From the NCBI GenBank assembly GCA_947493335.1, contig CANLQO010000003.1:186001-250000 (forward strand): 64,000 bases of DNA. Reading direction: 5' to 3'. Each line of letters opens with the position of its first letter. The stretch's first letter is position 1. The notes below the pieces were generated by a model. It searched no databases. It saw only the letters and a program-made list of their open reading frames with translations, and was not told the DNA's origin. The stretch comes from an uncultured Paracoccaceae bacterium. GTDB taxonomy: Bacteria; Pseudomonadota; Alphaproteobacteria; Rhodobacterales; Rhodobacteraceae. Positions 27,607-30,309 of the stretch are shown one piece after another. A program made the translations under genes and the position numbers.

Positions 27607-30159
27607 CTAGCCGCACTTGGAATAGCCGCAGGACCCGCAGGTCATGCAGCCTTCGACCATGCGCAACTCATAAGACCCGCAGGATGAACAGGCCTTGCCG
27701 CGCGGCTTGCCCAAAGATTCCACGTTTGATTGCGGATCGACCTTCAGGCCCATGCCCTCGCCTTCCAGAAAACCAATGGCAACCATGTGCTTTTCGATCA
27801 CCCCGCCGATGGCCGCGAGGATCGAGGGGATGTATTTCCCCTGCATCCATGCGCCACCGCGCGGATCAAACACGGCCTTAAGCTCTTCCACCACAAAGGA
27901 TACATCCCCGCCCCGCCGGAACACGGCAGAGATCATCCGGGTCAGCGCCACGGTCCAGGCGAAATGCTCCATGTTCTTGGAGTTGATGAACACCTCAAAC
28001 GGCCGCCGGTGCCCCGCGATCACTAGATCATTGATGGTGATATAGATCGCATGCTCGCTGTCGGGCCACTTGAGCTTATAGGTCGCGCCCTCCAACTCCT
28101 GCGGTCGGTCCAGCGGCTCGGACATATAGACGACTTCGCCTGCATTGGCGTCAACGACAACCTCAGAGGGCTGGCCCTGACCGCGGGCGGGGTCAAAGGC
28201 CCCGCCCATGGGGGCGGTCGGGGCCTGCCCGGCTTGGCCGGGCGCATCGGAATTGCCGAAGAGGAGCCAGCCTGCGGTTACACCAAACGCCTCAGCATAA
28301 GTCTTTGCATTCTCGGGCCGGAACGTTCGGTTGCCATTTTCGTGCGAGAAATATGTTTGTGTGGTCCACTGAAATTTTTCAATCGCGGCAGTGGCCGTCT
28401 CATACCCGGCCCGTTGGCGTGCTTCCTGTAGGCGTTCATGAGGCTGCGTGGGAGCCGTCCTCTCTTCCGAGACCGACAGCACCGACCCGGTCACATCATT
28501 GGGCCTGTAGGTCGTGCAGCCCTTACAGCCCTGATCCCAGGCGGCCATGTAGACCTCTTTGAAATCATCAAAGCTGATGTCTTCGGGGCAGTTGATCGTC
28601 TTTGAGATGGATGAATCAATCCACTTCTGCGCCGCCGCCTGCATCCGCACGTGATCAAGCGGCGCCAGCGTCTGGGCATTCACGAAATGCTCCGGCAAGG
28701 GTTCATCCCCCTTCAGGTCGCGCCACATCTGCACGGCGTAATCCACGACTTCTTCTTCCGTCCGCGACCCATCCTTTTGCAGCACCTTGCGGGTATAGGC
28801 ATAGGCAAAGACCGGCTCGATCCCTGACGATACATTGCCCGCATAAAGCGAAATCGTGCCTGTCGGCGCGATCGAAGTCAGCAGCGCATTTCGTATGCCA
28901 TTTTGACGGATCGCCTCGCGCACATCCTCATCCATGTCCTGCATTGCGCCGGACGCCAGAAACTTTTCGGCATCAAACAGCGGGAAAGCACCTTTTTCCT
29001 TGGCCAATTCCACCGACGCCAGATATGCCGCGCGCGCAATTGCGTGCATCCATGTGTCGGTCTGTGTTGCGGCCTCTTCCGAGCCATAGCGCAGCCCCAC
29101 CATCAACAGTGCATCGGCCAGCCCCGTGACGCCCAGCCCAATCCGGCGCTTGGCCAGCGCCTCTTGCCGCTGCGCCTCCAGCGGGAACTGGCTGGCATCC
29201 ACCACGTTGTCCATCATCCGCACCGCGGTTGCGACCAATTCGGTCAGGGCATCCTGATCCAGACCAGCGTCCTCGCCAAACGGGTCGCTGACCAACCGCG
29301 CAAGGTTGATCGACCCCAACAGACACGCGCCATAGGGCGGCAATGGCTGCTCACCGCAGGGGTTCGTGGCGGCGATCGTTTCGCAGTAGCTGAGGTTGTT
29401 GGCCTGATTGATCCGGTCGATGAAGATCACGCCCGGCTCGGCATAATCAAAGGTCGACTGCATGATCGTGTCCCACAATTCCCGCGCCTGCACGGTCCGG
29501 TAGGTCTCACCCTTGAACACCAGGTCCCATGGCTTGTCGGCCTTCACCGCCTCCATGAAGGGGTCGGTGACCAGCACCGACATGTTGAACATCCGCAGCC
29601 GTGCGGGGTCGGATTTGGCAGTGATGAAATCCACGATATCGGGGTGATCGCAGCGCATCGTTGCCATCATCGCGCCCCGACGCGATCCGGCGGACATGAT
29701 CGTGCGGCACATCGCGTCCCAGACATCCATGAATGACAGCGGCCCACTGGCGTCCGCCGCCACACCATGCACCGCAGCCCCCTTGGGCCGGATGGTGCTG
29801 AAGTCGTAGCCGATCCCGCCGCCCTGCTGCATGGTCAGCGCGGCCTCTTTCAGCATGTCGAAAATCCCGCCCATGCTGTCGGGCACCGTGCCCATGACAA
29901 AGCAGTTGAACAGCGTCACCTGCCGTGCGGTGCCTGCACCCGCCGTGATGCGCCCCGCTGGCAGATACTTGAAATCCTCCAAGGCGCAATAGAACGTCTT
30001 TTCCCATTTCTTGGGCGACTTTTCGACCGCCGCCAGCGCGCCTGCGATCCGCGTCCACGTCTCCTCGACGCTTGCGTCAATGGGTGTGCCGTCAGCTTCC
30101 TTGAAACGATACTTCATATCCCAGATCTGTTCAGCAATCGGGGCGGCAAAACGGGTCAT
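27607..30159 (-). CDS. nrdJ: Adenosylcobalamin-dependent (class II) ribonucleotide reductase with embedded XRE domain
   Basis: NrdJ makes deoxyribonucleotides using a B12 radical. The 850-residue protein has Cys86 (LFNCFV), the radical Cys268 and Glu270 (NPCGEQPLPPYG), and a zinc-ribbon-like tail with CSSCGSYE and CMTCGSCGYSKCG. No N-terminal ATP cone is seen. Unusually, residues 575-635 (28255-28437) read as a complete XRE/phage-repressor helix-turn-helix (RLQEARQRAGY, TYFSHENGNRTFRP, AEAFGVTAGWLLFG). They sit in the linker between KGCTTYRPND and EVVYMSEPLDRP. The frame is continuous. ATG at 30159 starts the conserved part; longer starts run into the promoter. Probable NrdR boxes lie upstream. 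Confidence 0.93.
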   Translation of the reverse strand: MTRFAAPIAEQIWDMKYRFKEADGTPIDASVEETWTRIAGALAAVEKSPKKWEKTFYCALEDFKYLPAGRITAGAGTARQVTLFNCFVMGTVPDSMGGIFDMLKEAALTMQQGGGIGYDFSTIRPKGAAVHGVAADASGPLSFMDVWDAMCRTIMSAGSRRGAMMATMRCDHPDIVDFITAKSDPARLRMFNMSVLVTDPFMEAVKADKPWDLVFKGETYRTVQARELWDTIMQSTFDYAEPGVIFIDRINQANNLSYCETIAATNPCGEQPLPPYGACLLGSINLARLVSDPFGEDAGLDQDALTELVATAVRMMDNVVDASQFPLEAQRQEALAKRRIGLGVTGLADALLMVGLRYGSEEAATQTDTWMHAIARAAYLASVELAKEKGAFPLFDAEKFLASGAMQDMDEDVREAIRQNGIRNALLTSIAPTGTISLYAGNVSSGIEPVFAYAYTRKVLQKDGSRTEEEVVDYAVQMWRDLKGDEPLPEHFVNAQTLAPLDHVRMQAAAQKWIDSSISKTINCPEDISFDDFKEVYMAAWDQGCKGCTTYRPNDVTGSVLSVSEERTAPTQPHERLQEARQRAGYETATAAIEKFQWTTQTYFSHENGNRTFRPENAKTYAEAFGVTAGWLLFGNSDAPGQAGQAPTAPMGGAFDPARGQGQPSEVVVDANAGEVVYMSEPLDRPQELEGATYKLKWPDSEHAIYITINDLVIAGHRRPFEVFINSKNMEHFAWTVALTRMISAVFRRGGDVSFVVEELKAVFDPRGGAWMQGKYIPSILAAIGGVIEKHMVAIGFLEGEGMGLKVDPQSNVESLGKPRGKACSSCGSYELRMVEGCMTCGSCGYSKCG

Positions 30160-30262
30160 AGCGGTGGCTTTCCGGACTAAGAGGATGGATCGGCAGGACA
30201 TCACCATACAGGGCGTCGCCGCAATTTGGAACGGGATTTCTGTATGGGTTTATAAGAACTAC

Positions 30263-30309
30263 ACACTACATATGGTGCCATCAAGTCGTGAATCACCCAA
30301 ATATGGGAA
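30263..30309 (-). promoter_or_regulatory. Candidate pair of NrdR boxes before nrdJ
   Basis: ACACTACATATGGTGC at 30263-30278 matches 13 of 16 positions of the NrdR consensus (acaCwAtATaTwGtgt). A weaker copy, centred at 30301/30302, begins exactly 31 bases later and keeps the ATAT core (CCAAATATGG). Two boxes three helical turns apart are typical for NrdR, the repressor of ribonucleotide reductase genes. The pair sits 100-150 bases before nrdJ. Confidence 0.6.

Follow-up and report, generated by a model that had tools for sequence, protein, structure and literature searches.

What is a phage-repressor-type DNA-binding domain doing inside an enzyme that makes DNA precursors, and how did it come to be there? 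The question is raised by nrdJ, a class II ribonucleotide reductase gene of an uncultured marine Paracoccaceae bacterium (assembly GCA_947493335.1, contig CANLQO010000003.1, positions 186,001 to 250,000), which lies in the 64,000-nucleotide stretch of DNA that we analysed and call the window. A preliminary description of this stretch had placed an XRE helix-turn-helix (HTH) domain at 28255-28437 inside the reductase, and both fold and repressor homology bear this out, with the domain at 28258-28443. In outline, this DNA-precursor enzyme has a slot into which DNA-binding domains of phage-repressor type have been placed again and again. The features used below are as follows.

27607..30207, minus strand: nrdJ, class II (adenosylcobalamin-dependent) ribonucleotide reductase (open reading frame and translation; NrdJ_Z TIGR02504)
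29920..30138, minus strand: RNR all-alpha N-terminal domain, residues 24-96 (Pfam PF00317)
28507..29907, minus strand: catalytic barrel, residues 101-567 (Pfam PF02867; alignment A2)
28444..28500, minus strand: upstream tether, residues 570-588, with low confidence at 570-584 (AlphaFold2 model)
28258..28443, minus strand: XRE/CI-type helix-turn-helix insert, residues 589-650, five helices (AlphaFold2, tblastn, PHROG, tree)
28166..28245, minus strand: 80-bp palindromic repeated element (REP-like), in frame as linker (copies elsewhere in the genome)
27784..28080, minus strand: TSCPD domain, residues 710-808 (Pfam PF12637)
27613..27690, minus strand: cysteine-rich C-terminal tail, residues 840-865 (six invariant cysteines, alignment A2)
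30263..30278, minus strand: NrdR-box-like site in the nrdJ promoter, 13/16 to consensus (consensus match)

Judged by its sequence, the window's NrdJ is an intact class II ribonucleotide reductase with an intact enzyme core. The open reading frame at 27607-30207 on the minus strand translates into an 866-aa protein whose start is probably M17, at 30159, a choice that reproduces the residue numbering of the preliminary description. This protein passed the curated cut-off of NrdJ_Z TIGR02504 in a profile search (595.5 bits against 399.95), its Pfam matches to the barrel (101-567) and to the TSCPD domain (710-808) both exceed their cut-offs, and the best structural match of the whole model is Thermotoga maritima NrdJ (PDB 1xje, E 3.4e-34). 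Across the 78 sequences of alignment A2, C102, N282-P-C-G-E286 and C295 are invariant, and we take the single cysteines C102 and C295 to be redox cysteines. In PMC9669993, NPCXE is the active-site motif of class II reductases, and IscU-like and zinc-finger C-termini are described for these enzymes; the TSCPD domain is taken here, by our own equation, to be the IscU-like domain.

The HTH lies in the linker between the barrel and the TSCPD domain, after the last barrel residues and about 10 residues past the last residue alignable to the T. maritima NrdJ crystal construct. AlphaFold2, run with a 78-row alignment, returned helices at 589-599, 605-612, 616-623, 631-641 and 645-650 with pLDDT of 92-95, so that the HTH fold which the preliminary description had put up for structure prediction was obtained, and gave pLDDT below 50 to the flanks at 570-584 and 654-701. 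As modelled, the domain is a lambda-repressor-like five-helix fold hung between two low-confidence tethers, and the linker around it is probably disordered. Taken in isolation it matches HTH_19 at E 1.3e-4 and 22.3 bits, below the Pfam gathering cut-off of 30.2, and HTH_3 at 18.3 bits, below the cut-off of 23. Its matches to phage repressors reach at most 58% identity (tblastn, best E 5e-16), and the PHROG transcriptional repressor family is matched at 8e-8. The five-helix model and these repressor matches agree with the earlier claim that the linker contains a complete phage-repressor-type domain without signs of decay. By eye, the insert starts near the repressor N-terminus and stops at the end of the DNA-binding domain; what comes next is not an S24 autocleavage domain but a linker derived from a repeat, and then TSCPD. 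Because an HTH occurs at the equivalent site in 20 of 80 titled public NrdJ loci, a top-ranked set out of more than 593 whose share is not a frequency, the domain is not an assembly artefact of the window's genome.

The window's genome is alone among the 6 of its genus in carrying the insert, and the NrdJ proteins of the 5 congeners are 91-94% identical to the window's over approximately residues 1-590. Sampling 394 genomes of the family, which its named members identify as Rhodobacteraceae, at one per genus, we obtained 350 usable NrdJ matches (149 + 201; a few end at contig ends, and G344 shows no linker), and read the linkers of open frames longer than about 825 residues, shorter frames being counted as empty. 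An HTH occupies the linker site in 48 of the 350, all 48 seen as sequence and among them G009 and G184, to which we return below, and in a control of the length rule, which parsed 19 of 20 further linkers from shorter or cut frames, none of the 19 held an HTH. Linker lengths across 174 parsed loci are bimodal (36-66 versus 115-219 aa; one later-read empty linker measures 74), and named records of Tateyamaria, Pseudooceanicola, Puniceibacterium, Roseovarius and Sulfitobacter show both states within each genus. Outside the family, where 114 of 289 genomes of the class matched and 29 loci were examined (3 of them belonging to the family after all), the 21 parsed linkers among the other 26 loci, 5 being unparsed, contained no HTH. 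The linkers of related families vary freely, and one long linker among those parsed is made of simple repeats; outside Rhodobacteraceae, L191 (G671) has an NrdJ linker of 142 residues built largely from near-perfect tandem repeats, each about 20 residues long, with no HTH. In 4 carrier genomes, no other open reading frame of more than 500 aa matches the insert profile at E 0.01.

The preliminary description had treated the insert as a single domain to be followed through NrdJ homologues. Relatives do carry HTHs at the same site, but these are not one orthologous domain, and the premise on which recognition-helix conservation was to be judged fails with it, the site holding many different XRE domains. 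Across the 58 inserts of alignment A1, from which and from whose counts the distinct inserts L021, L144 and L186 were excluded, there are 0 invariant columns, even as 55 of 58 match HTH_3 (Pfam) and 55 of 58 match phrog_8, a family of phage regulators, with E no higher than 0.01; the odd-looking inserts, tested separately, also match HTH models. The inserts sort into XRE subtypes to which we give the letters S, F, K, D, E and R. Similarity of insert and of enzyme body is uncorrelated (Mantel rho 0.048, p 0.22), and same-type pairs make up 12% at body identity of at least 88% versus 9% below 78%, with 9-12% in every bin. One genus of three species holds an E-type HTH, an F-type HTH and an empty site, the bodies of its E-type and F-type carriers being 93% identical over the 500 codons upstream of the linker, and a single linker elsewhere (L160, G118) holds F-type and D-type HTHs in tandem. 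On a body tree of 161 rows, in which some genes were entered twice, insert presence and absence require at least 31 state changes, in a sample in which carriers are over-represented. F-type inserts partly track the body (rho 0.73, p 0.026, 8 rows), which indicates that inserts can persist for a while, and the K, S and D types show no significant insert-body agreement. The NrdJ linker in Rhodobacteraceae is thus a slot that holds a phage-repressor-type HTH in about 14% of the genera sampled, with turnover so fast that neither the presence nor the type of HTH follows the enzyme body. In one locus (L018), a (GE)n run follows the D-type HTH in the linker.

Turning to origin, we built an HTH tree from 57 NrdJ inserts and 23 reference repressors (7 phage records, 13 viral contigs, 2 bacterial genomes and 1 plasmid). 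The AU test rejects a tree in which all NrdJ HTHs form a single clade (p 0.00017); the window's HTH nests among CI/LexA-like repressors, and that of L102 groups beside the HTH of a viral contig. Grouping the window's HTH with the S-type inserts and L187 is not rejected (AU p 0.11). Since the reference repressors were chosen by searches with the window's, K and F domains, the other insert types are thinly tested. As 55 of 57 inserts are nearer another NrdJ insert than any of the 23 reference repressors, much of the exchange may take place within NrdJ. Free-standing relatives of the window's HTH at E 1e-8 number two in 295 family genomes (56% and 47%), and both look like N-termini of S24-type repressors and, by eye, are divergent from small genes, as are most of the phage repressors examined, in CI/Cro-like fashion, the Sulfitobacter phage excepted. 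None of five inserts tried against the phage collection is 60% or more identical to a repressor; viral-contig scans with the window's HTH and with an F-type insert gave no confirmed relative, and one with a K-type insert gave 13 relatives.

Composition points the same way. GC3 averages 60.8% in the inserts versus 83.6% in their own bodies, the insert being lower in 54 of 57 (56% in the window's insert region); the gap is smaller in 103 non-carrier loci (linkers 71.1 versus bodies 76.6), and 25 other XRE domains in 4 carrier genomes average 81.3% (range 52-92). With GC3 this low relative to bodies and host XRE genes, the inserts are phage-like in composition (the 23 reference repressors range over 40-75%), which suggests that they are young. 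Of the options raised by the preliminary description, that of a captured domain proves correct, the HTH in the NrdJ linker being a capture. Three results speak against inheritance of one ancestral HTH with losses: the AU test, the missing insert-body correlation and the phage-like GC3.

The linker has received other material as well. The 80-bp palindromic element at 28166-28245 has at least 3 further good copies in the window's genome (88%, 80%, 79%), with copies also in G009, G184, G230 and G346; the 5 congeners have marginal matches at best. By blastn, 4 of 58 carriers have it in the nrdJ linker, versus 0 of 103 non-carriers (p 0.016), and by eye G009 and G184 have it there too. Other copies, in the window's genome and in some carriers, apparently lie often between genes and in some cases just before a start codon (by eye). 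Between the window and a Sulfitobacter, 60 of 62 linker bases are identical although the HTHs differ; the identity arises because the repeated element lies there, and with copies of the element elsewhere in the genome it is no proof of a recent exchange of HTH cassettes. In G009 (L144 / L287) the nrdJ reading frame changes after the HTH, through a real break or an assembly error, and in G184 (L186 / L286) an insertion sequence with a 475-aa transposase-like open reading frame interrupts nrdJ at an F-type HTH; a NusG-like gene on the other side of that insertion sequence makes this nrdJ seem rearranged. With two carriers broken in or beside the HTH or the element, the linker evidently also collects debris. 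The preliminary description had missed this downstream repeat, along with the absence of the insert from congeners and the different HTHs of other carriers.

What, then, might keep such domains in place? We favour, tentatively, a sequence of repressor capture, allele exchange and retention for phage-operator binding. Fragments of repressor genes from temperate phages or mobile elements, trimmed to the DNA-binding domain, would enter the NrdJ linker, after which recombination in the conserved flanks would pass inserts from one nrdJ allele to another. The DNA-binding domain of CI needs a dimer. According to PMC9669993, long-tailed class II reductases provide one. In what we consider the weakest step of the proposal, dimeric NrdJ would present two phage DNA-binding domains on flexible tethers and would occupy the operators of related phages, the domain being kept for this. 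Lacking the S24 autocleavage domain, the carrier would not be switched off by SOS, unlike a true repressor. If a changing specificity is selected for, this would account for the exclusively repressor-type HTHs as well as for their exchange, with temperate phages supplying the domains and the changing demand alike. The lowered charge of the inserts and their scarcer basic residues at one recognition-helix position, both given below, weigh against the proposal, as do the other insertions that the linker takes up. The wider form of this proposal, in which Rhodobacteraceae NrdJ serves as a carrier of exchangeable, SOS-insensitive phage operator-binding domains, a host immunity that is built out of repressors of the phages themselves and reshuffled through nrdJ recombination, we regard as unlikely.

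The main rival is that the HTH is a tolerated passenger, the linker accepting small self-folding domains so that recombination brings in repressor fragments of infecting phages, which last for a short time and serve no function. We judge this somewhat unlikely, and yet it would account for everything but the exclusive fold: the linker is of low confidence in the model and also takes palindromic repeats and an insertion sequence, its counterparts in related families vary without apparent constraint, the phage-like GC3 suggests young inserts, and two alleles are broken. The charge of the inserts fits as well. NrdJ HTHs have a mean net charge of -0.9 versus +1.0 in 40 free XRE domains that were not subtype-matched (p 7e-4), the window's HTH has -1 and its two S24 relatives +4 and +5, and basic residues occupy one recognition-helix position at a frequency of 0.29 in NrdJ HTHs versus 0.60 in free XRE domains, a lowering expected if some NrdJ HTHs no longer bind DNA. 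Random capture, however, should also bring in other small domains, whereas every long family insert seen looks HTH-like, and the extent of the window's insert, from repressor N-terminus to the end of the DNA-binding domain (by eye), likewise argues against a chance fragment. The same charges weigh on the rather improbable idea of a DNA tether, by which the HTH would anchor the enzyme to the nucleoid and so keep dNTP production close to replication or repair; sequence specificity would then matter little, and any XRE domain would do. The independence of insert type from body, the low-confidence tethers on both sides of the HTH and the intact enzyme core are all consistent with it, but a non-specific tether should be basic, NrdJ HTHs are slightly acidic on average, and most genera do without an HTH. 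That the HTH has ceased to bind DNA and now serves as a decoy or docking module, with phage anti-repressors or the C-terminal tail as conceivable partners, is very improbable: the strongly acidic D-type inserts (net charge -3 to -9) would suit it, but no partner is known, and the other types resemble ordinary repressor domains.

The preliminary description had also suggested that the enzyme regulates its own gene. As a local regulator, or trigger enzyme, NrdJ would bind at the nrdJ promoter or at some other one, with its nucleotide binding or oligomeric state as the gate, and enzymes with gene-regulating DNA-binding domains are known, PutA among them. We found no clear support for this and think it distinctly unlikely. 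All 80 genomes tested, 46 carriers and 34 non-carriers, have NrdR, on which ground we rejected the HTH as an NrdR replacement, and its retention in 46 of 46 carriers speaks against simple autoregulation by NrdJ. The window's promoter has an NrdR-box-like site at 30263-30278, scored against what we take to be the NrdR-box consensus, and similar sites lie upstream of the congeners' nrdJ (by eye). Perfect dyads near the nrdJ start are in no excess in carriers (4/56 versus 8/90 non-carriers), and the window's proximal 120 bp contains no 6+6 dyad. Leaning the other way, looser dyads (at least 8 of 9) are somewhat commoner in carriers (14/56 versus 10/90), NrdR-box-like sites (at least 12 of 16) are rarer (6/56 versus 19/90), and in L004 a perfect palindrome of 19 bp starts 48 bp upstream of nrdJ.

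Set against known systems, the window's NrdJ shares with class II reductases (TIGR02504; T. maritima NrdJ 1xje) the common barrel, the NPCGE motif, the TSCPD/IscU-like domain and the cysteine-rich tail, and differs by the XRE HTH after the last barrel residues; neither HTH nor helix-turn-helix occurs in the main text of PMC9669993. The insert is 45-58% identical to the N-terminal DNA-binding domains of the repressors of Microcystis phage Mwe-JY08, Ruegeria phage 45A6 and Rhizobium phage RHph_TM3_3_3, whose genes stand divergent from small genes in a CI/Cro-like arrangement, and departs from phage CI/LexA-like S24 repressors in lacking the S24 domain and in being housed inside an enzyme. PutA likewise joins a metabolic enzyme to a DNA-binding module, which there is terminal and conserved and in NrdJ is internal, optional and exchanged. 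Type I restriction HsdS exchanges its target-recognition domains, and so also swaps DNA-binding modules between conserved scaffolds; in NrdJ the scaffold is a metabolic enzyme and the role of the HTH in DNA specificity is only putative. The open-licence PMC literature yielded no account of an HTH in NrdJ, an absence there that is not proof, and as far as the literature searched shows, there is no earlier description of a housekeeping enzyme whose phage-repressor-type accessory domain is replaced from one sister species to the next. Should the domains bind DNA, a single protein would couple dNTP synthesis physically to the control of phages or genes, and the diverse HTHs would serve as natural replicates for finding out what selects them; should they not, the linker documents cleanly how a core enzyme captures domains in nature, and the question becomes why one fold only.

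Two further groups of NrdJ deserve mention. Roseophage NrdJs (phage records H53-H64) have the same architecture, are 55-68% identical and are apparently without an HTH, gene lengths and coverage leaving no room for one in the 12 listed of 340 phage records; they are possible partners for recombination. A second NrdJ-like paralogue (G000:C1:1527790-1529481), of about 608 aa and 59% identical, matches only as far as the end of the barrel, and a paralogue of this type is present in all 6 genomes of the genus.
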